Source of the DNA: Candidatus Promineifilum breve
GTDB lineage: Bacteria > Chloroflexota > Anaerolineae > Promineifilales > Promineifilaceae
DNA: 64,000 bases
NCBI RefSeq assembly: GCF_900066015.1
Contig: NZ_LN890656.1
Location: 1-64,000 of the forward strand
Reading direction: 5' to 3'
Shown here: positions 6,986 through 63,497 of the stretch, piece by piece
How the letters are laid out: the number at the start of each line of letters is the position of its first letter
Numbering within the stretch: the first letter of the stretch is position 1
Position numbers and translations under genes: made by a program
The notes under the pieces: model-generated
What the model was told of the DNA's origin: nothing
Databases searched by the model: none
The model's input: the letters and a program-made list of their open reading frames with translations, nothing else

Positions 6986-6996
6986 GGGATGCTCCT

Positions 6997-7190
6997 TGGG
7001 AATTACGAATTAGGAATTACGAATTAGGAATTTTAACCGCGGACGGCCGGCCGCGAAGACACGTTTGCCGGGCGGTTCGTCTGAGGTTATTCTATAGGGG
7101 AAAGCAGCTTGTGTCTAGAAACCGAGTTTTTTCTTGAAAACTCGGTTTCTAGTAATTCGTAATTCCTAATTCCTAATTCCTAATTCCTAA
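6997..7190. repeat. Repeat-filled gap with ACCGAG hairpin copy 2
   Basis: AATTACGAATTAGG units at 6997-7032, a hairpin at 7115-7152 (CTAGAAACCGAGTTTT paired with its complement) and AATTCCTAATTC units at 7152-7190 that run straight into the stop codon of the next gene. No ORF or promoter is seen. Confidence 0.8.
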
Positions 7191-9188
7191 TTACTTCCCC
7201 GTCCTTTCCTCCCGCGCCTTCTTCAGCATCTCGCCGGTCATCATATTGCGGTTCACCTCGCCGCCGTTTTGTTTCACTTGCAGCGGCACGATGGTGACGA
7301 CCACCCGCTCCAGCCCGGTCAGCCCCAGATTGAGGATGAGCGAACTGTTCTGGTGCAGTGCCTGGGTGAAGAGCGAATCCATCGACAGGTGGCCCATGAC
7401 GATGTGGACGATGGCCCCCGGGTTTTCTTCCAGCAAGTCGATGACGTATTCGCGGATGGGGGCGAGCAGGTGGCGATAGGGCGAATCGATGATGACCAGG
7501 TTCCCTTCGCCCACGTAGCGATCCCATTTGGCCTGGGTGGTGGCCGCCTTTTCCTGATTGACCCCGACATGGACGGCGTGCCACGGCGCGCCCAACGACT
7601 TGGCGAACTTGACCATCTGCAACGTGCCCTTGTGGACGCCATCGACCAGCAGCATGGTGATCACTTTGTCGGTGACGATCTCCTTGACCGCCGCGTTCTC
7701 CAGACTGAGGGCCTGGGCCACGTCCTTATAGTGGTGGTGGATGCGGAAGAAGATGAACACCAGGATGGGGATGAGCAGCAGGATGAACCACGCGCCGGAG
7801 GTGAATTTGGTGATGGCGAAGATCATCATCACCACGAAGGTGCAGACCGCGCCGAAGCCGCTGACGACCATGTGCAGCCGCCAATGGGGGTCGTACTCCA
7901 GATTGGTCTCCAGCCCCTTGACCACCTCGCCCGGCTGGAGCTTGCCGATCTTGCGCAGGCGTACGACCATGCCCGCCTGCGAGATGGTGAAGCTGAGGAA
8001 GACGCCGATGGCATAGAGCGGGATGAGGGCCGTGGTGCTGGCGCGCATGACCACGACCAGCACCGAGGCGGCGATGGCCAGGGTCATAATGCCCCAGGAG
8101 AAGACCAGACGGCCGCCGCGATAGGTGAGCTGGCGGGGCAGGAAGCCGTCGCCGGCATGGAGCGCGGCCAGCCGGGGGAAGTCGGCGTAGCTGGTGTTGG
8201 CGGCCATGAGCAGGATGAGCGCCGTGCCGGCGATGAGCAGCAGGTAGAAGATGCTGCCGTCGCCATAGACAGTGCGGGCCAGTTGGGAGATGATCGTCTC
8301 GTGGTGGGACGGGATGGCCTCGATGTGGCGCGACAGGAAGGTGATGCCCAGGAACATCGCCACCAGTAGCGTGCTCATGACGACCAGCGTTTTGGCGGCG
8401 TTGCGGCTGCGCGGGTCGCGGAAGGCGGTGATGCCGTTGGAGATGGCCTCGATGCCGGTCAGGGCGGCCGAACCGCTGCTGAAGGCGCGCAGGACGAGGA
8501 ACATGGTCAGCGGCGCGGCGGCCTCGGCGGCGAATTTGACGCCGGTGACGACGCCCAGCGTGCCCGTGGCCCAGCGGTAGAAGCCCACGCCCAGGGTCAG
8601 GAACATCATGCCCAGGAAGAAGTAGGTGGGCACGGAGAAGATGGAGCCGCTTTCCTTGACGCCGCGCAGGTTGATGATGGTGATGAAGCCGATGATGCCC
8701 ACGGCCAGCGGCACGCGCCAGGGGGCGATGTCGGGGAAGGCCGAGACGATCTGGGCCACGCCGGAGGAGATGGACACGGCCACGGTCAGGATGTAGTCGG
8801 TCAGCAGGGCCGCGCCGGCGATCTGGGCCGCCACCTCGCCCAGGTTGTCGCGGGCGACGATGTAGGCCCCACCGCCGTTAGGGTAGGCGTAGATGGTCTG
8901 GCGGTAGGAGATGGTGACGATGATCAGCAGCGCGGCGATGGCGATGGCGATGGGCACGGAGAGGCCCAGGAAGGCGGCCGTGCCGGTCAGGGCCAGGATG
9001 ACCAAAATTTCCTCGGTGGCATAGGCCGTGGAGGACAGGGCATCGGAGGCGAAGACGGCCAGGCCGACCTTGTTGCTGACGACCTGATGAGCCAGCGTGC
9101 GCGTCTCCAGCGGCCGGCCGATGAGCATGTTGGATAGGTTAACCCGGCGCTTGGCGGCCGGCAGGGGTGGGGTGGTTGTTGTGTCCAT
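7191..9188 (-). CDS. kimA: APC-family permease, KimA-like potassium/proton importer
   Basis: 665 residues; about twelve membrane helices in the first 450 residues, then a soluble cytoplasmic domain. Residues 44-60 (AVFASDALSSTAYATEE) and 128-142 (LLTDYILTVAVSISS), with SYRQTIYAYPNGGGAYIV between, closely follow Bacillus KimA; Asp49, Tyr56, Asp131 and Tyr132 correspond to its potassium-site residues as I recall them. KimA takes up potassium with protons and is inhibited by c-di-AMP through its C-terminal domain. A KdpDE-like pair and a Usp-like gene nearby support a potassium role. The stop codon is the first triplet of an AATTC repeat block. A general amino-acid permease is the alternative. 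Confidence 0.7.
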   Translation of the reverse strand: MDTTTTPPLPAAKRRVNLSNMLIGRPLETRTLAHQVVSNKVGLAVFASDALSSTAYATEEILVILALTGTAAFLGLSVPIAIAIAALLIIVTISYRQTIYAYPNGGGAYIVARDNLGEVAAQIAGAALLTDYILTVAVSISSGVAQIVSAFPDIAPWRVPLAVGIIGFITIINLRGVKESGSIFSVPTYFFLGMMFLTLGVGFYRWATGTLGVVTGVKFAAEAAAPLTMFLVLRAFSSGSAALTGIEAISNGITAFRDPRSRNAAKTLVVMSTLLVAMFLGITFLSRHIEAIPSHHETIISQLARTVYGDGSIFYLLLIAGTALILLMAANTSYADFPRLAALHAGDGFLPRQLTYRGGRLVFSWGIMTLAIAASVLVVVMRASTTALIPLYAIGVFLSFTISQAGMVVRLRKIGKLQPGEVVKGLETNLEYDPHWRLHMVVSGFGAVCTFVVMMIFAITKFTSGAWFILLLIPILVFIFFRIHHHYKDVAQALSLENAAVKEIVTDKVITMLLVDGVHKGTLQMVKFAKSLGAPWHAVHVGVNQEKAATTQAKWDRYVGEGNLVIIDSPYRHLLAPIREYVIDLLEENPGAIVHIVMGHLSMDSLFTQALHQNSSLILNLGLTGLERVVVTIVPLQVKQNGGEVNRNMMTGEMLKKAREERTGK

Positions 9189-9192
9189 GTGA

Positions 9193-9541
9193 ATTAGTTG
9201 TTAGTGGATAGTGGATAGTGGATAGTGGATAGTGGATAGTGGATAGTGGATAGTGGGCAGTGGGTCGCAATCGCTATCGCAATCGTTATCGTTATCGCTA
9301 TCGTTCTTTCGTCGTCTGTCGTCCGTCGTCCGCCGTCCGCGGTCCGCCGTCCGTCATTCGTCATTCGCCGTCCCCGGTGGGTTGAGCGGTGGGTTGAAAC
9401 CCACCGCTGGTACACGAAGTGCGTTAAAACGCACTGAAGAGGGCGGCGCTCTCTTCAACCGGCTTCAGCCGGGTTTTGTGTGTCAGCGGCGGGTTTGAAC
9501 CCGCCGTGGATTCGTCATTCGTCATTCGTCATTCGTCGTTA
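9193..9541. repeat. Composite repeat block, no gene
   Basis: In order: eight or so GGATAGT/GTGGGCA units (9197-9260), TATCG/AATCG units (9267-9305), CGTCCGCC-type units (9310-9370), a palindromic GGGTTGAAACCCACC / AACCGGCTTCAGCCGG element (9385-9508), then ATTCGTC units. No ORF or promoter is convincing. Confidence 0.85.
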
Positions 9542-10039
9542 TTATTCCGCCCTCTTCATTCGTAATTCGTAATTCGTCATTCGTAATTCCTCCCCCGTCT
9601 GTCCACTAACCACTGCCCACTGTTCACTTTCTTCAAGGGTATAGAGCGGGCAGCGCAGGGCGCGGCGCAACCACCACAGCCGCAGGCCATCGAGGGCGGC
9701 GAAAGGGCCGGTGGGGCGCGGGGCGAAGACGGCCGCGGCATTCGTTTGCTCAGCGGCGCTCAGCAGGCCGCTGCTGAACCGGGTGTATTCGTACAGTTCC
9801 ACGCCCACGGCCACGCCGTAGCTCTCGACCACGTTGACCAGCGCTTGCAGGGCGTCGAACTCGGCGAAGGGCAGCAGCGCCTCGTTGAGGCCCGCGCCTA
9901 GATCGCTGAGGTGCTCGACCGGGGTCGGCCGCAGGATGAGCACCCCCGCGCCGGTCTCGCGCGCCGTAGCCGCGGCCAGATGGGCGGCGCGCTGCGTCCA
10001 GGTCGTCTCGCCGGTGAAGAGCAAAATTGGGTTGGTCAT
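9542..10039 (-). CDS. Universal stress protein-like protein with a repeat-encoded C-terminus
   Basis: 165 residues. The first 136 show a UspA-like alpha/beta pattern: ILLFTGETTWTQRAAHLAAA, VLILRPTP, a central helix and the strand-helix AAAVFAPRP. The ATP-loop GxxGxxx(S/T) is not clear, so nucleotide binding is doubtful. Residues from about 137 (SEQWAVVSGQ, then LRMTNYELRMK) are translated GTGGGCA and AATTCGT intergenic repeats, including the stop. KdpD sensors normally carry a Usp domain; the KdpD-like kinase at 11594-13093 lacks it, so a separate accessory role is conceivable. Confidence 0.6.
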   Translation of the reverse strand: MTNPILLFTGETTWTQRAAHLAAATARETGAGVLILRPTPVEHLSDLGAGLNEALLPFAEFDALQALVNVVESYGVAVGVELYEYTRFSSGLLSAAEQTNAAAVFAPRPTGPFAALDGLRLWWLRRALRCPLYTLEESEQWAVVSGQTGEELRMTNYELRMKRAE

Positions 10040-10835: not shown

Positions 10836-10904
10836 CGTAGGTTGAACATCCCTGTTCAACCTCCCCGCAGGCTAAAGAGGTTGAACAGGGATGTTCAACC
10901 TACG
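10836..10904. repeat. Long GTAGGTTGAAC hairpin that supplies a stop codon
   Basis: CGTAGGTTGAAC at the left pairs with GTTCAACCTACG at 10893-10904; a second inverted pair lies inside. The last codons and TGA stop of the KdpE-like gene (10895) fall within the right arm. Related hairpins lie at 18317-18375 and 59440-59498. It may terminate both convergent genes. Confidence 0.75.
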
Positions 10905-17110: not shown

Positions 17111-18166
17111 ATGCGGACGAAAGTAATTGCTTTATTGATGTTGGTTGCCTTGCTGGCCGTCGCTTGCGGCGGGCAGGCCGAAACCGCGGTAGAAGAAGCC
17201 GCCGCGACCGTTGAAACCGTCGCCACGACCGTGGCCGAAGAGCCGACAGCCGAACCAGTTGCCGAAGAAGCAACGGCCGAACCGGCCACCACCGGCGAGG
17301 GCGAAATGCCCATGGCCGACCCCCTGGCCGTCAGCGGCGACATCGTCACCGCCGGCAGCTCGACCGTCTTCCCGCTCAGCGAGCGCATGGCCGAACGCTA
17401 TAGCAGCGAAGGCTTCGCCGGTCAGGTGACCATCGACAGCATCGGCACGGGCGCGGGCTTCGAGCGCTTCTGCACCGCGGGCGAGACCGACGTCGCCAAC
17501 GCCAGCCGGGCCATTAAGGAAGACGAAGCCGCCGCCTGCGAAGCCATCGGCCGCACGCCGGTCGAGTTCCGCGTGGGCACCGACGCCCTGGCGATCGTCG
17601 TGAACCCGGCCAACGACTTCGTGACCAACCTGACGCTGGAGCAGTTGGCGCTGGCCTTCAGCACGGCCGAGACCTGGGCCGACGTGGACCCGTCCTTCCC
17701 GGCCGAGCCGATCGCCCGCTACAGCCCCGGCACCGATAGCGGCACGTTCGACTACTTCGTCGAGGCCGTCTTCGACGACGACGCCACCCTGATCCAGGAA
17801 TCGGCCAACACCCAGTTCAGCGAGGACGACAACGTGCTGGTGCAGGGCGTCGAGGGCGACACCTACGCCATCGGCTACTTCGGCTACGCCTACTACCTGG
17901 AGAACGCCGACCTGCTGACCATCATCAGCATCGACGGCGTGGCCCCCACGGCCGAAACGGCCGAGGATGGCACCTACCCGCTCTCCCGCCCGCTGTTCAT
18001 CTACAGCGACGCGGCCATCATGCAGGAAAAGGCGCAGGTCGCCGACTTCATCAACTTCTACCTGACCTACGTCAACGAAGAGATCACCGACGTGGGCTAC
18101 TTCCCGGCCAGCGACGACGCCCTGAACGCGGCGCGCGCCAACTGGCTGGCGGCCATGGGGCAGTAA
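17111..18166 (+). CDS. pstS: Phosphate ABC transporter substrate-binding lipoprotein PstS
   Basis: 351 residues. I start at ATG 17111 since GGAGGAG at 17098-17104 is ideally spaced; an ATG at 17096 overlaps that site. Signal peptide with lipobox LAVAC (Cys near 19), then an acidic Thr/Glu/Pro linker and the periplasmic-binding domain. GSSTVFPLSERMAERY, DSIGTGAGFERFC, DVANASRAIKEDE and SPGTDSGTFDYF are the phosphate-binding loops of PstS. It is first in the pst operon, behind the Pho box. The last codons and TAA stop (GGGCAGTAA) belong to a GTGGGCA repeat. Confidence 0.93.
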   Translation: MRTKVIALLMLVALLAVACGGQAETAVEEAAATVETVATTVAEEPTAEPVAEEATAEPATTGEGEMPMADPLAVSGDIVTAGSSTVFPLSERMAERYSSEGFAGQVTIDSIGTGAGFERFCTAGETDVANASRAIKEDEAAACEAIGRTPVEFRVGTDALAIVVNPANDFVTNLTLEQLALAFSTAETWADVDPSFPAEPIARYSPGTDSGTFDYFVEAVFDDDATLIQESANTQFSEDDNVLVQGVEGDTYAIGYFGYAYYLENADLLTIISIDGVAPTAETAEDGTYPLSRPLFIYSDAAIMQEKAQVADFINFYLTYVNEEITDVGYFPASDDALNAARANWLAAMGQ

Positions 18167-29890: not shown

Positions 29891-29898
29891 GAAAGGTT

Positions 29899-29957
29899 TT
29901 AGGTGCTAGGTGCTAGGTGCTAGGGGAAGAGCGCTCTTCCCCTAGCACCTGGCACCT
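29899..29957. repeat. Inverted TAGGTGC repeat block
   Basis: TAGGTGC units, then GGGGAAGAGCGCTCTTCCCC at the centre and CTAGCACC units on the right arm. The TAG stop of hepT is the first triplet of the block read from that gene. Confidence 0.85.
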
Positions 29958-30306
29958 ACTCCTCGGACAATTGCTGAATAAGTTGGTCTACCGCCCGCAA
30001 TAGTGGGGGCAAGTCGTGGGTGATGGTATCCCACAGGATGTCATGATCGACGCTATCGTAGCCGTGGATGAGCCGATTACGCATGGCGACTACATCCGAC
30101 CAGGGTATATCCGGCAATTGCGCTCGCGTATCGGACGAAATGCGGCCGGCAGCCTCGCCGATGACTTCCATGAGGCGAATGAGGGCGAGTTCCAATAAGC
30201 GATCGGTCGTGAGGTCGTCACGCTCCTTACCGTTTGAGATAGCGATCGCTTCGGCGGTGAAGTCGCGCATGTGACGGAGGCGGATGAGTTCGTCATGGCG
30301 CGACAT
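29956..30306 (-). CDS. hepT: HepT-family toxin (HEPN/DUF86 RNase-type)
   Basis: 116 residues, start at 30306 inside the upstream gene. The HEPN motif RNRLIHGY (Arg-x4-His-x-Tyr) is present at about residues 76-83, with the usual LRHMRDFTAEAIAISNGKER start and the RLMEVIGEAAGRISSDTRAQ helix. HepT toxins cleave RNA ends or tRNA and are silenced by AMP groups that MntA adds to the motif Tyr. Its start overlaps the mntA gene by 14 bases. This is a complete HEPN/MNT pair. Confidence 0.9.
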   Translation of the reverse strand: MSRHDELIRLRHMRDFTAEAIAISNGKERDDLTTDRLLELALIRLMEVIGEAAGRISSDTRAQLPDIPWSDVVAMRNRLIHGYDSVDHDILWDTITHDLPPLLRAVDQLIQQLSEE

Positions 30307-30613
30307 ACAGATCCTCCGCTTCGGCCAACACTTCATCGCGGAAGTAGGGGCTGAGGAAACCCGGCGTATTGAGATCGACCTCGCGGCCGATCAGTTCGGT
30401 TAATTCGCGTTGGAGGGCGAAAAAGCGCAAGCCAACGCGTGTATCCGGCTCAAATTCCACCAATATATCCAGATCGCTATCGGGTCGAAAGTCATCGCGC
30501 AGGGCTGAGCCAAAGACGGCCAGCCGGCGAATGTGGTGGCGGCGGCTGAATTCGGCCAGCGCTTCGCGCGGAAGCGGGACGTGGGCCGACGCCTGAGAAG
30601 ATGGTTTCTTCAT
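30293..30613 (-). CDS. mntA: MntA-family antitoxin nucleotidyltransferase
   Basis: 106 residues from ATG 30613. The minimal nucleotidyltransferase signature is intact: VFGSALRDDFRPDSDLDILV, that is GS, about ten residues, then DxD. It ends GREVDLNTPGFLSPYFRDEV, typical of MNT antitoxins that follow DUF86 toxins. It should transfer AMP to HepT. A TATACT box ends six bases before the ATG, so the message probably begins at the start codon itself. Confidence 0.9.
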   Translation of the reverse strand: MKKPSSQASAHVPLPREALAEFSRRHHIRRLAVFGSALRDDFRPDSDLDILVEFEPDTRVGLRFFALQRELTELIGREVDLNTPGFLSPYFRDEVLAEAEDLYVAP

Positions 30614-30619
30614 GGCCTT

Positions 30620-30625
30620 AGTATA
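30620..30625 (-). promoter_or_regulatory. -10 element of the mntA-hepT operon (leaderless)
   Basis: Read on the minus strand: TATACT at 30625-30620, six bases, then ATG at 30613. The predicted first RNA base coincides with the start codon. No clear -35 is seen. Confidence 0.5.
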
Positions 30626-30688
30626 GCGCAAATGGGGAAAGAGCGTGATATGCTGTTGCCGCCGCTGGAATAAGCGTCCATGTCATAA

Positions 30689-30793
30689 AGGTGCTAGGTG
30701 CTGGGTGCTAGGTGCTAGGTGCTAGGTGCTAGGTGCTAGGTTCTAGGGAAGAGCGCTCTTCCCCTAGAACCTAGAACCTAACACCTAGAACCT
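30689..30793. repeat. Inverted TAGGTGC repeat block
   Basis: GTGCTAGGTGCTGGGTGC units face CTAGAACCTAACACC units around GAAGAGCGCTCTTCC. Supplies the TAG stop of brnA at 30792-30794. Confidence 0.85.
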
Positions 30794-31082
30794 ATTCCCA
30801 CGTCTGCAACTCCTCGCGCACCACGCGGCGCAGGGTGTCCACCAGCGCCTCGCGCTCGACGGCCTGGCGCAAGGTCTCGTTGATCAGGGTTTGGTAGCCG
30901 CGCTCGCCGGCCTGGGTCTTGAAATATTCGATCAGACCGGTATCCAACATGATCGTGACCCGTTGTTTACGCGGCGCGGGCCGGCGGCCGACGCGAAACG
31001 TGGCCCGATCCAGATCGGCCTGGGTCACCGGCCCGTAGTCGTCGGGATCGTCAAAGGTTGGAGAAGAAGTGACGTTGCTCAT
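30792..31082 (-). CDS. brnA: BrnA-family antitoxin
   Basis: 96 residues. RVTIMLDTGLIEYFKTQAGE, then GYQTLINETLRQAVERE, is the ribbon-helix-helix DNA-binding domain of BrnA, preceded by the DYGPVTQADLDRATFRVGRR segment that wraps the toxin. It overlaps brnT by 32 bases. BrnA binds and blocks BrnT and represses the operon; a 27-base palindrome over the promoter is the likely operator. The TAG stop is the first triplet of a TAGGTTC repeat. Confidence 0.9.
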   Translation of the reverse strand: MSNVTSSPTFDDPDDYGPVTQADLDRATFRVGRRPAPRKQRVTIMLDTGLIEYFKTQAGERGYQTLINETLRQAVEREALVDTLRRVVREELQTWE

Positions 31083-31323
31083 CTTTTTCGGCCTCGCGTA
31101 GGGAGATAATCCTGATCTCGTCTTCCGTCTCGGTGTGGACTATCACGACGACCTTGTCGCGCATGAGTCCAATGGTTACCCAGCGTTGCTCGCCGTAATC
31201 TCGCCGGTCGTCCTCAAATGTGAACGTCGGGCCTTCGAAGACCAGTTCAGCATCGGCGAAGTCCAGGCCGCGCTTCTCCAGCGTCAGGAGCCGTTTGGGT
31301 TCATGCCAAGTGAAGCGCATCAT
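31051..31323 (-). CDS. brnT: BrnT-family ribonuclease toxin
   Basis: 90 residues; two adjacent ATGs (31323 and 31320) are both possible. FTWHEPKRLLTLEKRGLDFA, AELVFEGPTFTFEDDRRDYG, ERWVTIG-like QRWVTIGLM and IRIISLREAEKDEQRHFF match BrnT, a RelE-fold ribonuclease that arrests growth. The toxin gene comes first and the antitoxin second, the normal order for this family. The promoter overlaps the start codon region, giving a leaderless message. Confidence 0.9.
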   Translation of the reverse strand: MMRFTWHEPKRLLTLEKRGLDFADAELVFEGPTFTFEDDRRDYGEQRWVTIGLMRDKVVVIVHTETEDEIRIISLREAEKDEQRHFFSNL

Positions 31324-32224: not shown

Positions 32225-32350
32225 ACCACGCCGGGTTCAAACCCGGCGCTGATAAACGAAACCCGGCTAAAGCCGGTTAAGGAGGTCGGTTCCCTCTTCA
32301 ACCGGCTTCAGCCGGGTTTTGTGTACCAGCGGCGGGTTTGAACCCGCCGG
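32225..32350. repeat. Palindromic CGGGTTTGAACCCG / AACCGGCTTCAGCCGG element
   Basis: Two palindromic modules: GCCGGGTTCAAACCCGGC at the left and GCGGGTTTGAACCCGC at the right, with ACCCGGCTAAAGCCGG and AACCGGCTTCAGCCGG between. No ORF in the 312-base gap 32124-32435. Confidence 0.8.
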
Positions 32351-40684: not shown

Positions 40685-40867
40685 GAGAATCCACAGATTA
40701 CACAGATTTCACAGATTGGTAATAGTAGTTAGTGGTCAGTGGTCAGTGGGCAGTTTGGATGCTGACCGACAGGTGTTGGTTTATGTTGCTGGAAGAACCA
40801 TAATTTTGCCACGATCCACAGCACTAGATGCTCTTCAATCGGTGAAATCTGTGAAATCTGTGGATTC
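40685..40867. repeat. CACAGATT arms flanking a GTGGTCAGTGG block
   Basis: CACAGATTACACAGATTTC units at 40685-40716, GTGGTCAGTGGGCAG units at 40729-40758, then reverse-complement GAAATCTGTGAAATCTGTG units at 40834-40867, which encode the tail and stop of the next gene. Confidence 0.85.
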
Positions 40868-41713
40868 TTCTTCCTTCTCTAATATTCGCCTCAACTCGCG
40901 GGCGACGAGGGCGGGGCGCTCGTCGCGCAGCAGGGGCAGGGCGCGGCGGGCCGGGCCGAGGGCGGCGGTGTCGATGCCGCCCACGACAAGGGCGGGCAAA
41001 TCGCGCGGCCCTTCGCAGAGCAGCGCGGCGTCGGGGCCGAAGATAGTCGAGCCGCCCCAGTAGCGGCCGCCGTCGTCGGCCCCCACGCGGTTGGCGTGGA
41101 TGACGAAGGTGGTGAATTGCAGGGCGTAGGCGCGGTTCATGGCCAGCACCTTGTCGGCCGTGGTCAGGGCGTCCCCCTGGCCGTGCTCCACCGAGGCCGA
41201 GAGCAGCAACAGTGTGTCGGCCCCGTCCTGCCACAGCAGATAGGGCAGCGAGGCGTGCCAGAAATCCTCGCAGATGAGTAGGCCCATGCGGCCGAAGCGG
41301 GTGTCGAAGGCGCGGGCCGTCTGGCCGGGGGTGAACACCCGCCCCTCGGCCCACTGGCCATAGTTGGGCAGGTAGACTTTGCGGTGCAGATGGACGAGAC
41401 GGCCGCCGGAGAGATAGGCGGCGCTGATAGTGTGGCGGTGGCGGGCGTCAACCTCGACGAAGCTGACCACCAGATCGACCTGATCGCTGGCCCCTAGCAG
41501 CGCGGCGAAGGTCGGGTCATCGGCCGTGGCGCGGATGGCGACGTCGTAGGCCATCTCGCCCAGCCGGTAGCCGGTCAGCGACAGCTCGGGGAAGATGAGC
41601 AGGTCGATGCCGCCGGCCCGCGCCTGCCCGGCGGCGGCCAGATGGGTAGCGAGGTTGGCCGCCACGTCGCCCAGGACAGGGTCAATCTGGGCGATGCCGA
41701 TGGTGATATTCAT
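40835..41713 (-). CDS. Carbon-nitrogen hydrolase (nitrilase superfamily)
   Basis: 292 residues. The catalytic triad is visible: Glu in LLIFPELSLTGY, Lys in HRKVYLPNYGQW and Cys in GLLICEDFWHA. The pattern resembles the glutaminase-type amidase domain of NAD synthetases, but no synthetase domain follows, so it is a free amidase of unknown substrate. The last ten residues, ESTDFTDFTD, and the stop are translated CACAGATT repeat and are not part of the fold. It is followed downstream by era on the same strand. Confidence 0.85.
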   Translation of the reverse strand: MNITIGIAQIDPVLGDVAANLATHLAAAGQARAGGIDLLIFPELSLTGYRLGEMAYDVAIRATADDPTFAALLGASDQVDLVVSFVEVDARHRHTISAAYLSGGRLVHLHRKVYLPNYGQWAEGRVFTPGQTARAFDTRFGRMGLLICEDFWHASLPYLLWQDGADTLLLLSASVEHGQGDALTTADKVLAMNRAYALQFTTFVIHANRVGADDGGRYWGGSTIFGPDAALLCEGPRDLPALVVGGIDTAALGPARRALPLLRDERPALVARELRRILEKEEESTDFTDFTD

Positions 41714-42701: not shown

Positions 42702-42820
42702 TGTTGTCTCTCCTAGCGGGATAAAACCCTGGCATGGTAATGGATTCAAATTATCGTTCAGATTTGAACCTAGTCAATACGGGCTTGCGCAATCGCCGGC
42801 CTAGACACGGGGAAGAATAG

Positions 42821-42915
42821 AACACGGATGACACGGATTTACGCGGCTAATAGGGGAATACCGTTACGCCCCTGCTTATCCGTGAAAATCCGTGCTATCC
42901 GTGTCAATCCGTGGT
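42821..42915. repeat. Inverted ACGGATT repeat block
   Basis: ACACGGATGACACGGATT units face TATCCGTGAAAATCCGTG units. The right arm supplies the stop and last residues (NEFTTD) of the adjacent gene at 42904. Confidence 0.8.
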
Positions 42916-43944
42916 GAATTCATTGATCCGCAAGGCGCGCATCGTCACCCACTTGTTGGGCGCGCCCAGGCGGCCGAAGGCGACGCCGGGCCACATCTTG
43001 CCGTTGTAGTGATACTCCAGCGGCCAGCGGCCGTCGGCGTCGGCCTTGGCGGCGATGAGGGCCAGCGTGGGAGCCAGGCGCGGGTCGTCGCCATAGCCCA
43101 CGGCCAGCAGCGCCTCGGCCACTTGCAACAGATCGGCCACGTAGAAGACGGGGAAGCCGAACTTCCACCAGTTGCCGCTGGGCGCGGCGGCGTAGCCGTT
43201 GGGCCAGGGGGCCGTGGCCGGCTCACCGGCCAGCAGGAATTCCGCGCCCTGGCGGATGGCCTCATCGATCAGCGGCGTGCGCCGGCCGGGCGGCAGCTTG
43301 CCGAAGGCCAGCATAACCTTGGCCGCCCCCCAGGCGCAGGACAGGTTGTTGTTGGCCCCGCAGCGAAAGAGCGGGCCGGATTTGTAGGCGGTGTAGCGGC
43401 GCTCGGCGTTGCACCGCGCGGCGTTGGCGGAACTGCCAGTTCCGCGCGGGGCGATGCCTTCGCCGGTCACGGTGCGCGCCATCCAGTCGTAGGCCCCGTC
43501 GAGGCGGGGATCATCGACACCCAGATCGAGCAGGGCGGTCAGCAGGTTGCCTTGCAGGCAGTCGAACGTGCCCGCCGGGCGGCCGTTGTAGGCGAACTGG
43601 CCGCCGGGGCACAGGGCCTGGTCGAGCAGATAGGCTCCGGCGCGGGCCACGCGCTCGTCGTCGGCGGCCGACGCGCCCAGTTGCCCCAGGGCGATCATGG
43701 CCCAGACGGTGGAGCGATACTTGGGGCCATAGCCGGGGCCGGGCTTGCCCCAGTGGCCGTCGTCGGCCATGTCGGCCAGGATGGCGGCGATGGGGCCGTC
43801 GCGGTGGGCGGCGGCGCGGGCGGCAACCAGTTCGGGGTCGTCGGCCGGGCGGTGGAGCAGGTCGCGCAAGGCCAGATAGCGCGGGCCGGGATCGGTGGGG
43901 TCGAGCAACCAGGTCAGCAGTTCGGGCGGGTGGGATGGGTTCAT
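42904..43944 (-). CDS. Alpha/alpha-toroid (terpenoid cyclase/prenyltransferase-like fold) protein
   Basis: 346 residues of helical repeats like squalene-hopene cyclase barrels: RYLALRDLLHRPADDPELVA, STVWAMIALGQLG, GGQFAYNGRPAGTFDCLQGN and WKFGFPVFYVADLLQVAEAL. Relatives are often labelled nitrogen fixation protein NifH by error. Cyclase catalytic motifs (DxDD, QW repeats) are not seen, so the reaction is unknown. The last residues, NEFTTD, and the stop come from an ACGGATT repeat. Alone on its strand. Confidence 0.75.
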   Translation of the reverse strand: MNPSHPPELLTWLLDPTDPGPRYLALRDLLHRPADDPELVAARAAAHRDGPIAAILADMADDGHWGKPGPGYGPKYRSTVWAMIALGQLGASAADDERVARAGAYLLDQALCPGGQFAYNGRPAGTFDCLQGNLLTALLDLGVDDPRLDGAYDWMARTVTGEGIAPRGTGSSANAARCNAERRYTAYKSGPLFRCGANNNLSCAWGAAKVMLAFGKLPPGRRTPLIDEAIRQGAEFLLAGEPATAPWPNGYAAAPSGNWWKFGFPVFYVADLLQVAEALLAVGYGDDPRLAPTLALIAAKADADGRWPLEYHYNGKMWPGVAFGRLGAPNKWVTMRALRINEFTTD

Positions 43945-48737: not shown

Positions 48738-49475
48738 ATGACCACACCACCCGACGCCGTAATCCTCATCTCGGCCAACGCCGAATGGCAACCCGTCCGC
48801 GCCCGCTATCCCGATGCCGCTATCGAGCCGACGCCCTATGGCGAATGTTTCACCGCCTCGCTGCCGTTGACGGACGGCCGCCGGTCGCCGGTGGTCTTCT
48901 TCCACGGCGGCTGGGGCAAGATCGACGCCGCGGCCGGCACGCAGTACGCCATCGACCGCTGGCGGCCGGCGCTGCTCATCAATCTGGGCACGTGTGGCGG
49001 CTTTGCCGGGGACATCGCCGCCGGGGAGGTGCTGCTGGTCGATTTCACCCTGGTCTACGACATCGTGGAGCAGATGGGCGACCCCGACGAGGCGCTGGCC
49101 CACTATGCCACGGCCATCGATCTGTCATGGCTGGGGCGGCCGTGGCCGTTGGCGGCGCGGCAAGAGCTGCTGGTGTCGGCCGACCGCGACATTGTGGCCG
49201 GCGAGGTGGCCGATCTGCGCGCCCGCTATGGGGCCATCGCCGCCGATTGGGAGAGCGGGGCCATTGCCCACGTCTGCGGCCGCAACGGCACGCGCTGCCT
49301 CATCCTGCGCGCCGTCACCGACCTGGTGAGCCACGAGACGGGCGAGGCGTATGGCCGGCTCGATCTCTTCGCCGCCCGTGCCGCCGAGGTGATGGGCCGC
49401 CTGGTCGATTCGCTGCCCGGCTGGCTGGAGATGCAGAGAAGAGAATCCACAGATTACACAGATTCCACAGATTGA
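48738..49475 (+). CDS. Nucleoside phosphorylase/MTA-SAH-nucleosidase-like protein
   Basis: 245 residues from ATG 48738. GKIDAAAGTQYAIDRWRPA, LLINLGTCGGFAGDIAAGEV and the substrate-binding DWESGAIAHVCGRNGTRCL, then ILRAVTDLV, match the PNP/UDP family, with Asp of AVTD as the likely catalytic acid. It may act on methylthioadenosine, S-adenosylhomocysteine or futalosine. The C-terminal ESTDYTDSTD and the stop are encoded by CACAGATT repeat. A TATAAT box seven bases before the ATG suggests a leaderless message. Confidence 0.85.
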   Translation: MTTPPDAVILISANAEWQPVRARYPDAAIEPTPYGECFTASLPLTDGRRSPVVFFHGGWGKIDAAAGTQYAIDRWRPALLINLGTCGGFAGDIAAGEVLLVDFTLVYDIVEQMGDPDEALAHYATAIDLSWLGRPWPLAARQELLVSADRDIVAGEVADLRARYGAIAADWESGAIAHVCGRNGTRCLILRAVTDLVSHETGEAYGRLDLFAARAAEVMGRLVDSLPGWLEMQRRESTDYTDSTD

Positions 49476-49528
49476 AGAAGGATAATCCTCTTAAAAATCT
49501 GTGAAATCTGTGTAATCTGTGGATTCTC
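49439..49528. repeat. Inverted CACAGATT block forming the nucleosidase tail
   Basis: AATCCACAGATTACACAGA units (including the last ten codons and stop of the nucleosidase gene) face AAATCTGTGTAATCTGTGG units up to the protease stop region. Confidence 0.85.
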
Positions 49529-50815
49529 TTATTCTTCAGATAGTAGTTCTAGCCCGCGCAGGACCTGGGTGTCCTCGATGGCCGGCAGCGTCTCGGCCGT
49601 CAGCTCGTCGGCCGTTTCGGGCACGGTCAATTGCACCGGGCCGCTCAGCTCCACCACCTCATCGGGCACAATGCCCTGCCGCCAGATGACCCGGCCCTCG
49701 GGCGTCAGCCATTGCTCGGTCGCCAGCAGGATGGCCGAGCCGTCGGACAGGCCGAACTCGTTGAGCACCGTGCCCGTGCCGAAGGTCGTCTCGCCCACCA
49801 GCGTGGCCCGGCCGTGGTCTTGCAGCGCGCCGGAGACGATCTCGCTGGCGCTGGCCGTGCCCTGATTGATGAGCACGACCACCGGCAGCGTCGTGGGGTT
49901 GTCATTGCTGGTGCGTTCATCGCGCACGTCGCCCTGGGCGTCCTGGCGCAGCACCACGACCGTGTCGGCCGGCAGGAATTGCCCGGCCACCTTCACGGCC
50001 TCGTCCAGCAGGCCGCCGGGATTGTTGCGCAGGTCGAAGAGGATGCTGGTGGCGCCGGCGGCGGTGGCCTCGGCGATGGCCGCGCCCAGTTCGTCGCCCA
50101 CGCCGCGGCTGAACTCGGCGATGCGGACGTGGGCCGTGGGGCCGGGAGCGGCCGTCGTGCCCGGCAGCATGGCCCAGGTGACGTTCTCCAATTCGATGCG
50201 CGCCCGCTCGATGGTCAGCACCACCTCTTCGCTCGTCTCGGGGTCGAAGAAGGTGATGGTCACTTCGGTGCCCGCCGGGCCGATGATGCGGTCGATGACC
50301 TCTTGCAGGGTCAGGCCGGCCATGTCCTGGCCGTCCACTTCCAGGACGATGAAGCCGGAGCGCACGCCGGCGGCCTGGGCCGGGGAGTTGTCGATGGGCG
50401 AGACGACGGTCACGAAGCCGTCGCGCATTTCGACGTAGGCGCCGATGCCCTCGAATTCGCCGGCGGTGCGGTTGTGCTGGTCGGTGACCATGCGGGGGGT
50501 CATAAAGCGGCTGTGGCCGGTGTCGCCCAGGCTATCGACCATGCCGGCCAGCGCGCCGTCCTGCAATTGGGCGGTGGTGGCCGCGTCCTGATCGACGAAA
50601 TTCTCCTGGATGATGACGCGGGCCTCGTCCAGCAGGGCGTCGTTCAGCCCCACTTCGTCGGCCGCGCCGCCGCCGCCGAGCAGGTTGCCGCGCAAGACGG
50701 TCCGGTCGAACAAAATGCCGCCCACGAAAAAGGCGGCCACCAGGATCAAAACGAGCGCCCCGGTCAGGCAACCTGATGGGCGCTTGGGTGGTGTATAGGG
50801 TTGATAGTCTGCCAT
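49529..50815 (-). CDS. S41 carboxy-terminal-processing-protease-like protein (CtpA type)
   Basis: 428 residues from ATG 50815 (an ATG 15 bases upstream is possible). One membrane helix at about 17-38, then a helical segment, PDZ domain (about 105-190; GIGAYVEMRDGFVTVVSPID) and tail-protease domain. RNNPGGLLDEAVKVAGQFLP and the nucleophile in NQGTASASEIVSGAL are clear. The segment that normally carries the catalytic Lys (FGKG) reads GETTFGTGTVLNEF, with Thr instead. It may use another base, or be inactive and bind substrates only. Confidence 0.85.
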   Translation of the reverse strand: MADYQPYTPPKRPSGCLTGALVLILVAAFFVGGILFDRTVLRGNLLGGGGAADEVGLNDALLDEARVIIQENFVDQDAATTAQLQDGALAGMVDSLGDTGHSRFMTPRMVTDQHNRTAGEFEGIGAYVEMRDGFVTVVSPIDNSPAQAAGVRSGFIVLEVDGQDMAGLTLQEVIDRIIGPAGTEVTITFFDPETSEEVVLTIERARIELENVTWAMLPGTTAAPGPTAHVRIAEFSRGVGDELGAAIAEATAAGATSILFDLRNNPGGLLDEAVKVAGQFLPADTVVVLRQDAQGDVRDERTSNDNPTTLPVVVLINQGTASASEIVSGALQDHGRATLVGETTFGTGTVLNEFGLSDGSAILLATEQWLTPEGRVIWRQGIVPDEVVELSGPVQLTVPETADELTAETLPAIEDTQVLRGLELLSEE

Positions 50816-51404: not shown

Positions 51405-51482
51405 AAATTAGGAATTAGGAATTAGGAATTAGGGGAGCGCGTTCTTCATTCCTAATTCCTAATTCCTAATTCGTAATTATTA
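51405..51482. repeat. Inverted AATTAGG/CCTAATT repeat block
   Basis: GAATTAGGAATTAGG units face CCTAATTCCTAATTCG units. Contains the TAA stop of the PPK2 gene at 51480-51482. Confidence 0.85.
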
Positions 51483-61347: not shown

Positions 61348-61357
61348 ACGCCACCTA

Positions 61358-61366
61358 TGCTATAAT
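61358..61366 (+). promoter_or_regulatory. Extended -10 promoter of the receiver-PP2C gene
   Basis: TGCTATAAT at 61358-61366, an extended -10; start codon at 61389, so the leader is about 16 bases. Confidence 0.55.
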
Positions 61367-61388
61367 CCCCCCGCAACACGGGTAACCC

Positions 61389-62753
61389 ATGACCATTCGC
61401 ATCATTATCGCCGACGACCACAGCGTGGTGCGCCAGGGGCTGCGCATGTTCCTCGGCCTCGACCCCGACCTGCAAGTGGTCGGCGAGGCGGTCAATGGGG
61501 CCGAGGCGGTGGAGCGCGCCGCCGCGCTGCGGCCCGACGTGGTGTTGATGGACCTGATCATGCCGGTGATGAGCGGGCTGGAGGCCACGGCCGAAATTCG
61601 CCGCCGCGGCCTGCCGTCGCAGGTCATCGTCGTCACCAGCGTCATCGAGGAAGCGGCGGTCACGGCCGTCATCAAGGCCGGGGCCATCGGTTATCTGCTG
61701 AAGGACACCGAGGCCGACGAATTGGGCCGGGCCATCAAGGCCGCCGCCGCCGGTCGCGCCCAACTGTCGCCCCAAATCGCCGCCCGCCTGCTGGTGGAGA
61801 CGCAGAGCGCCGCCGGCCCCGACAGCCTGAGCGACCGCGAGAACGAGGTGTTGCGCCTGGCGGCCGAGGGCCTCAGCGATGAGCAGATCGCCCTGCGCCT
61901 GCTGGTCAGTGAGCCGGTCGTCCATTCCCACGTGGCCGGCATCGTCGAGAAGCTGCGCCTGACGAACCAATCCCCAGACCAGCCGGAGCGCGTGGAAAGC
62001 CAGGGCCAACGCACGGAGCGCGAGCTTCAACAGGCGCGCCGCATCCAGATGAGCCTGCTGCCCGACCATTACCCGGCCGCCCCCGGCTGGGAGTTCGCCG
62101 CCGGCTATGAAGCGGCGCGCGAGATCGGCGGCGACGACCTGTATGACTTCATCGACTGGCCCGACGCGCCGCAACGGGTGGGGTTGCTCATCGCCGACGT
62201 ATCGGGCAAGGGCACGGCCGCGGCCCTGTTCATGGCCCACAGCCGGGCCATGATTCGCGGCGCGGCCCAGACCCCGGCCGGCCCGGCGGCCACGCTGGCC
62301 CAGGCCAACGGCCACATCGCCCGCGACAACCAGGCCATGCTGTTCGTCAGTGCCTTCTACGCCGTGCTGGACACGGGCGACGGCCGCCTGACCTACGCCA
62401 ACGCCGGCCACAACGTGCCCATTTTGCGCCGCGCCGACGGATCGACGGCCGAGGTGACGAGCCGCGGCATGGTGCTGGGCATCATGGACGACATGACTTA
62501 TGACGAGGATGAGATCGTTTTGGCCCCCGGCGATCTGCTGCTACTCTACACCGACGGCATCACCGAGGCCACGAACCCGGCCGCCGAACTCTTCGGCCTG
62601 GCGCGGCTGATGGCCGCCATCCCCCCCAGCCCGGCCACGGCCCAGGAGGTCGTCGCCGCCATCATCGCCGCTGTCAACGCGTTTGGCGGCGATACGGCGC
62701 AGGCGGATGATTTGACGGTGGTAGCTGTGAAGAGAATGACGAATTACGAATGA
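61389..62753 (+). CDS. Receiver-LuxR-type HTH-PP2C (SpoIIE/RsbU) fusion
   Basis: 454 residues. Receiver 1-120 with Asp9/Asp10 and phospho-acceptor Asp55 (VVLMDLIMPVMSG). A GerE-type HTH at about 147-195 (LSDRENEVLRLAAEGLSDEQ, then VVHSHVAGIVEKLRL). A short coiled linker (TERELQQARRIQMSLLPDHY) and a PP2C domain at about 225-450 with metal motifs GGDDLYDF, DVSGKG, YANAGHN, TDGITEA and DDLTVV. It can in principle bind DNA, receive phosphate and remove phosphate from Ser/Thr proteins, such as the kinases upstream or an anti-sigma partner. The C-terminal MTNYE and stop are ATTACGA repeat. Confidence 0.9.
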   Translation: MTIRIIIADDHSVVRQGLRMFLGLDPDLQVVGEAVNGAEAVERAAALRPDVVLMDLIMPVMSGLEATAEIRRRGLPSQVIVVTSVIEEAAVTAVIKAGAIGYLLKDTEADELGRAIKAAAAGRAQLSPQIAARLLVETQSAAGPDSLSDRENEVLRLAAEGLSDEQIALRLLVSEPVVHSHVAGIVEKLRLTNQSPDQPERVESQGQRTERELQQARRIQMSLLPDHYPAAPGWEFAAGYEAAREIGGDDLYDFIDWPDAPQRVGLLIADVSGKGTAAALFMAHSRAMIRGAAQTPAGPAATLAQANGHIARDNQAMLFVSAFYAVLDTGDGRLTYANAGHNVPILRRADGSTAEVTSRGMVLGIMDDMTYDEDEIVLAPGDLLLLYTDGITEATNPAAELFGLARLMAAIPPSPATAQEVVAAIIAAVNAFGGDTAQADDLTVVAVKRMTNYE

Positions 62754-62817
62754 CGAATGACGAATAAAGAGCGCGCTCTTCATTCGTCATTCGTCATTCG
62801 TCATTCGTAATTAGGTA
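62739..62817. repeat. Inverted ATTACGA/ATTCGTC repeat block
   Basis: AATGACGAATTACGAATGACG units (given in shorter form: ATGACGAATTACGAATG) face CATTCGTCATTCGTCATTC units; includes the stop of the PP2C gene. Confidence 0.85.
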
Positions 62818-62820
62818 TTT

Positions 62821-63465
62821 ATGTCAATTAGCGTCTTACTGGTAGATGACCATGCCGTCGTATTGAACGGCCTGACCATGTTCCTGGGGTTGGACCCGGA
62901 ACTGGCAATTGTCGGCCGGGCGGCCAACGGGGCCGAGGCGGTGCGGCTGGCCCATGAGCTGCTGCCCGACGTGGTGCTGATGGACCTGCTCATGCCGGTC
63001 ATGGATGGCATCACGGCCACGACCATCATCCGCCGCGAGCTGCCGGAGGTGGAGGTCGTGGCCCTGACCAGCGTCCTCGACGACGACAAGGTGATCGGGG
63101 CCATCCGCGCCGGGGCCATCGGCTACCTGCTGAAGGACACCGAGGCCGACGAGTTGCGCCGGGCGATCAAGGCCGCCGCCGCCGGGCAGGTGCAACTGTC
63201 GCCGCAGGTCGTGGAGCGGCTGCTGCGCGAAGTGAAAACGCCCGACAGCCCGCGCCTGGGCGACTACGAGCAGGAGATTTTGCGGCTGGTGGCCCGCGGC
63301 CGTTCCAATGGCGAGATCGCCCAGGAACTGAAAGTGGGCGAGAAGGCGGTCAAGAATCTGGTGGGCGGCATCCTGAGCAAGTTGGGCGTGCCCAGCCGGA
63401 CGCAGGCGGCGCTGTATGCGCTGCGGACGGGGTTGGTGACGTTGGAAGAGACGGCGTTGAATTAA
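62821..63465 (+). CDS. NarL/LuxR-family response regulator
   Basis: 214 residues. Receiver with Asp9/Asp10 and Asp55 (VVLMDLLMPVMDG) and a GerE HTH at about 145-205 (LGDYEQEILRLVARGRSNGE, then KAVKNLVGGILSKLGVPSR). The receiver is very close to that of the fusion gene before it (AIGYLLKDTEADEL, RAIKAAAAG and QLSPQ in both), so the two arose by tandem duplication. No histidine kinase is adjacent; the donor may be elsewhere or the Ser/Thr kinases may act on it. Confidence 0.9.
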   Translation: MSISVLLVDDHAVVLNGLTMFLGLDPELAIVGRAANGAEAVRLAHELLPDVVLMDLLMPVMDGITATTIIRRELPEVEVVALTSVLDDDKVIGAIRAGAIGYLLKDTEADELRRAIKAAAAGQVQLSPQVVERLLREVKTPDSPRLGDYEQEILRLVARGRSNGEIAQELKVGEKAVKNLVGGILSKLGVPSRTQAALYALRTGLVTLEETALN

Positions 63466-63497
63466 TTACGAATTAGGAATTAGGAATTACGAATTGC
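63462..63497. repeat. AATTACG/AATTAGG repeat units
   Basis: TTAATTACGAATTAGGAATTA-type units (shorter: TTACGAATTAGGAATTAGG) begin at the stop codon of the NarL-type gene. Confidence 0.8.

Follow-up and report, generated by a model that had tools for sequence, protein, structure and literature searches.

Palindromic arrays of short tandem repeats favour the 3' ends of genes in Candidatus Promineifilum breve and occasionally supply C-terminal residues

Results and Discussion

The window, i.e. the whole stretch of 64,000 nucleotides that was analysed, corresponds to C2:1-64000 of the 5.03 Mb genome of Candidatus Promineifilum breve (Anaerolineae, Chloroflexota; three contigs; G000 below). A CN-hydrolase gene is located at 40835-41713 on the minus strand and re-reading of its 3' end showed that it closes with KEEESTDFTDFTD followed by the stop codon. 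Its last ~10 residues, ESTDFTDFTD, are read from one arm (40836-40868) of a 9-mer array of the CAGATT type, whose own TGA closes the frame. The inverted partner of this arm, 94% complementary to it, lies at 40686-40718 immediately 5' of the following codirectional gene, and the loop of the resulting palindrome (40686-40868) contains a 7-mer array of the AGTGGNN family (40731-40754). A similar situation is found at the nucleosidase/phosphorylase gene (PNP_UDP_1) on the plus strand at 48738-49475, for which 48738 is a likelier start than 48654. Its 3' end is RRESTDYTDSTD followed by the stop, giving the tail ESTDYTDSTD, and coincides with a CAGATT palindrome at 49439-49530 with 97% complementary arms (49439-49473 and 49496-49530). 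Where a comparison was possible the Pfam domains stop before the tails, namely at residue 257 of 292 for CN_hydrolase and at 225 of 245 for the phosphorylase.

Further gene ends in the window are built from other repeats. The toroid-like gene at 42904-43944 on the minus strand receives its ending NEFTTD and stop from one arm of an ACGGATT-type hairpin (42819-42918), and the receiver-LuxR-SpoIIE (SpoIIE/PP2C) fusion gene at 61389-62753 on the plus strand ends with MTNYE and a stop from a GAATKAS 7-mer array belonging to a palindrome (62735-62812) with 39-nt arms, 92% complementary and without spacer, across the stop. The kimA-like gene (7191-9188, minus strand) is followed by a GAATTAG array (7154-7196, partner arm at 6996-7032) that starts at its stop. 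In two TAGGTNC palindromes (29894-29958 and 30716-30794) the first TAG is the stop of hepT (29956) and brnA (30792), respectively, a GAATTAG palindrome at 51441-51482 touches the stop of ppk2 (51480), and a GAATTAG array at 63463-63496 starts within the stop of the NarL-type gene (63465). The sequence GGGCAGTAA is located at 18158 and 55942. Altogether 23 of the 47 predicted genes of the window have an array edge in the interval from -40 to +15 nt relative to their stop. The HepT and BrnA-type toxin-antitoxin genes form one cluster (29956-31323) with TAGGTNC palindromes between them. A second, non-tandem class of hairpins (CGGCGGGTTCAAACCCGCCG; AGAAACCGAGTTTT..AAAACTCGGTTTCT; GTAGGTGGAACTTCCAGTTCCACC) was observed at 32229-32349 and at similar sites, often just 3' of stops.

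An earlier note had described these repeat-derived tails and repeat-borne stops, and all the 3' ends that it named proved to be real, including the five stops that coincide with the first triplet of a repeat or touch one. Two cases need a correction of detail. About 25-29 C-terminal residues of the Usp-like protein (gene at 9542-10039, minus strand) are indeed derived from GAATKAS arrays together with an AGTGGNN stretch (9510-9599), but its stop at 9542 is located between arrays and not within one; the gene has 498 nt here and its orthologue in the relative G038 has 426 nt. Likewise, the KdpE-like gene (10895, minus strand) ends inside the GTAGGTTGAAC hairpin as described, but this hairpin (10836-10904) is not a tandem array.

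At the genomic scale we used a sample of 1.664 Mb, a third of the genome, in which 1,211 genes were predicted by a home-made finder (codon-phase Markov model and dynamic programming) and tandem arrays were called at periods of 6-12 nt. We found 553 intergenic arrays in 1.66 Mb (1.9 per kb), mostly with periods of 7, 8 and 9; intergenic densities of 1.9-3.3 per kb compare with 0-0.03 per kb in shuffled intergenic sequence, and the density is about nine times lower in coding DNA. The units, 6-10 nt long and mostly 7-, 8- and 9-mers, belong to about ten unrelated families, the main ones being GAATKAS, AGTGGNN, GGCG(A/G)GT, TAGGTNC, CACAGATTN, GCAGGGGA, ACGGATT, CGCTATC and GGATGAA. A core or head GAAGAGCGCTCTTC common to all of them was considered and rejected, as it occurs only in TAGGTNC and some GAATKAS palindromes.

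Most arrays are part of a palindrome. An inverted partner is present in 203 of the 273 array-bearing gaps of 25-400 nt, with a median arm of 31 nt and a median loop of 13 nt, and the usual layout is an array, a short loop and the mirrored inverted array with ~70 nt in total. The order of unit variants is mirrored between the arms (152 palindromes lay above and 8 below the shuffled order, with the best register allowed), and therefore the arms are inverted copies rather than independent expansions. Upkeep of the stems at the RNA level was rejected, as mismatches on the transcribed strand show no excess of G-U over A-C (G.T 94, A.C 112); we infer instead that the arms have been kept alike through copying at the DNA level, as in template switching. 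More than ten loci carry a concentric composite in which AGTGGNN arms are enclosed by CAGATT arms (e.g. C2:332755-332846 and C2:734942-735108; the palindrome at 40686-40868 of the window is one version of it, D+ C+ C- D-) and the reverse order was not seen.

Among the 1,211 stops, 98 are located inside an array and 222 at a distance of at most 10 nt, while the corresponding numbers for starts are 5 and 34. As a null model each array was shifted to uniformly distributed positions within its gap, with the in-gap rule left unchanged (500 shuffles). Stops within 10 nt of an array were observed 210 times against 124±8 expected, a number reached in 0 of 500 shuffles, so the preference for gene ends suggested in the earlier note holds. 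Codirectional gaps have 136 arrays close to the stop, compared to a mirror-image count of 28. The share of arrays with the stop-side edge at most 15 nt from the stop is 66% in gaps of 120-200 nt, 63% in gaps of 200-400 nt and 50% in gaps of 400-1500 nt, where 37%, 22% and 16% were expected; as the pile-up is also seen in gaps of 200-1500 nt it is not due to lack of room. Overlap with the stop itself behaves differently from proximity: 93 stops are overlapped against 92.2±7.4 under the null, and arrays intruding at least 6 nt past the stop into the gene number 34 against 64±7, i.e. half of chance. An early count of 51 of 605 stops overlapped against 4 starts had looked like evidence for targeting, which vanishes under this null. 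Thus, the arrays favour the spot just behind the stop without any preference for overlapping it.

This result bears directly on the model of the earlier note, in which the elements enter at or grow from native stops and replace them. In favour of such stop-directed insertion or expansion, the 5' edges of the arrays pile up at -5 to +10 of the stop and in 29 of 173 genes the stop immediately before an array is the triplet obtained by extrapolating the unit backwards (13.3±2.7 expected). Furthermore, TAG accounts for 61% of the overlapped stops and 32% elsewhere (P=1e-8, partly circular), and the stop type varies with the array family (chi2 P=7e-4), from which it follows that a minority of stops is truly owned by the array. 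However, most adjoining stops do not match the unit and are therefore native, overlap is exactly what uniform placement gives with deep overlap at half of that, and the position is common to many unrelated units so that there is no single target site. The proteins with tails also argue against it, as they are unchanged or shorter as often as longer: for the seven tail genes with an orthologue in G038, three proteins are longer by 7-12 residues, three are equal within one residue and one is shorter by 17. Preferential replacement of native stops could therefore not be upheld, and we regard stop-directed insertion as improbable. Arrays extend at least 9 nt upstream of the stop codon in 32 genes, a few of which (C2:361800-363098, C1 sample 61348-61710) may have ordinary coding ends of low complexity.

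Starts are overlapped by only 3 arrays against 64±7 expected under the placement null. This strong avoidance of starts, together with that of coding DNA, would fit a purely neutral filter, according to which repeats land anywhere and are tolerated only where nothing breaks. Purging and tolerance alone, however, predict uniform placement in long gaps and therefore a positive factor, either a function or an insertion bias, is needed; the stop-side pile-up in gaps of 200-1500 nt despite ample neutral room weakens the neutral filter, as does the mirror-image control. We consider it an unlikely explanation if taken on its own.

One possible function would be that of the organism's transcription terminators, which would account for the position of the arrays. 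Their enrichment at 3' ends, their scarcity in divergent gaps (0.9 arrays per kb, compared to 2.1 in convergent and 2.3 in codirectional gaps) and the presence of hairpins at 85% of array-bearing convergent ends all agree with this idea. In contrast, only 4% of the array hairpins have at least 6 T in the next 10 nt, so that the hairpin followed by a T-run of an intrinsic terminator is generally missing, and separate canonical hairpin-plus-T-run terminators do exist, some of them 10-50 nt 3' of stops. Arrays are also found inside the nuo (complex I) operon (C1:2005446-2020233) and in other tight codirectional gaps, and the stem mismatches lack any RNA-strand asymmetry. It is thus unlikely that most arrays are ordinary terminators, and we attach little weight to this explanation.

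Comparison with relatives points to a rapid gain and exchange of the repeats. Family copy numbers vary between same-genus species, with the caveat that the relatives are fragmented MAGs built from short reads, whose assemblies may be missing repeats. AGTGG has 229 matches here against 1 in G035, which alone represents the genus among the relatives of that sample. For GAATKAS the numbers are 251 here, 157 in G035 and 69 in G038, and for CAGATT 92 here, 65 in G039 and 0 in G038. About 150 array matches of AGTGGNC were also detected in G219, a member of another family of the phylum, with none in 197 of 200 other genomes sampled from the phylum, and this patchy distribution suggests horizontal spread or repeated origin.

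The nearest sampled relative has orthologues that are ~73% identical in protein, and at this distance neither a polymorphic empty site nor a target-site duplication of the kind expected for a MITE was seen. As the earlier note had proposed as a check, we looked for the T-D tail of the CN-hydrolase in its relatives, where it was found in none of 100 homologues (20 of the family and 80 named ones from Anaerolineae/Chloroflexota). Where only G000 has an array in a syntenic gap, the median gap length is 125 nt compared to 66 nt in G038 (Wilcoxon P=0.004); the median difference is 75 nt, while array-free control gaps differ by 1 nt. The absence of the tail and the shorter gaps without array together indicate that the arrays are gained segments of DNA with a fast turnover. 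The possibility that the hairpin replaces a native spacer was also examined: in 13 of 19 cases the gap remaining after subtraction of the hairpin falls below the length of the G038 gap, which is not significant (P=0.38).

Families are exchanged at one and the same gene end. At the nucleosidase end the 9-mer type is present in G000 and G033, the stop in G038 is the TAG of an 8-mer array and G035 has no array. Two orthologues with 77% identity (C1 sample 674898-676526) each close with an array, of one family in the first and of another in the second, giving MTTDH and MTNDE as the last residues before the stop. The paralogues C2:128513-131659 and C2:174272-177502 share 95% identity over their last 523 nt and diverge exactly inside the array (AGTGGGT in one, GAATTAG in the other), so that arrays may act as break points of duplication or recombination. 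In the nuo operon most intercistronic gaps of G000 hold a palindromic hairpin, from several unrelated families, between the stop and the next ribosome-binding site, and in the comparable gaps of G038 the hairpin is absent or shorter and diverged. Conservation of presence at orthologous ends is suggestive only, with an odds ratio of 2.9 (P=0.12) for arrays and 3.4 (P=0.03) for any hairpin.

From these data we propose that the arrays are probably palindromic 3'-end hairpins resembling the STRR and REP elements, which are gained, turn over fast and are placed mainly by selection, with the protein tails as by-products. The palindromes would be gained as extra segments of DNA and purged wherever they fall on starts or in coding sequence, and copies would be retained mainly right 3' of stops and before the ribosome-binding site of the next gene, also within operons. 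We infer that this purging elsewhere, combined with tolerance of or even benefit from a stop-proximal 3' hairpin, sets the position rather than stop-directed insertion; both a function and a mobility of the repeats are presumed here. Where an array happens to lie across the stop, the protein would either gain a few residues, the frame staying open as far as a stop in the unit or at the border of the array, or end slightly early at a stop in the unit. Judged from the unit lengths, 7- and 8-mers cycle through all frames and stop-carrying units should therefore end the protein within ~21-24 nt, and 9-mers would keep the frame up to the array border, where ..GATTGA would close ESTDFTDFTD. Tails and truncations would then be tolerated by-products of occasional overlaps and not a targeting rule. 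It is also possible, although we put this forward only tentatively, that hairpins close to stops form a functional class, with an effect on the terminating ribosome or a protective role for the 3' side of each cistron, and that the lineage keeps refilling the same gene ends with unrelated families. If so, the structure and position of a hairpin would outlast its repeat sequence.

Several known repeat systems resemble the arrays in part. Like STRR and heptameric SSR, they comprise many dispersed intergenic arrays of 6-9-nt units that prefer the 3' side of ORFs and avoid divergent gaps, as was reported for the heptameric GGGAATC and GGGGA(T/C)T repeats of Xanthomonas and Nostoc, which form inverted pairs and lie very close to stops or overlap them (PMC4692102). 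Those repeats are one G-rich family studied for G-quadruplexes (PMC4692102), whereas the arrays described here comprise about ten families, form mirrored palindromes and in some overlaps encode protein tails. The TAACTGA heptamers of Beggiatoaceae and cyanobacteria are intergenic, 13 of them overlap stops and copies within ORFs are mainly at protein ends, which has been attributed to the unit having a stop in every frame (PMC4679880); they are mostly located just upstream of starts and show no particular hairpin (PMC4679880), in contrast to the 3' ends and palindromes described here.

The REP/BIME elements of E. coli are located no more than 15 nt from stops (review PMC12306157, after an earlier study in E. 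coli) and share with the arrays that they are short extragenic palindromes in many copies, a large share of them 1-20 nt behind an ORF (PMC12306157). The arrays, too, are multicopy extragenic palindromes, as shown by the inverted partners. However, REPs are sequence families with a GTAG/CGTC-type tag (PMC3733652), and neither this tag nor any other common head or core was found among the unrelated unit families here. No link to a Y1 (TnpA_REP) transposase was seen; the genome has three Y1_Tnp genes with few arrays nearby that do not flank them as pairs. Rickettsia palindromic elements add residues to unrelated proteins (review PMC2229807) and do so in frame inside conserved proteins (PMC2229807), whereas only the last few residues are concerned here: the protein copies examined are C-terminal, with the Pfam domains ending earlier, and arrays are rare in coding DNA. 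Among open-access papers we found no earlier description of so many unrelated families at one position, of the mirrored arms, of the filling of gaps inside operons or of a measured lack of stop preference. Overall we seem to be dealing with a rich form of repeat families known from other bacteria and not with a new stop-replacing system.

Conclusion

In Candidatus Promineifilum breve the spread of repeats edits protein C-termini (~3% of the sampled genes) and stop-codon usage, which provides a case at the genome scale. Predicted C-termini and stop codons in such genomes may be repeat-derived and should be read with this in mind. As about ten unrelated families occupy one position, effects of position (ribosome, mRNA, selection) can be separated from effects of sequence, which is not so in single-family systems such as REP.
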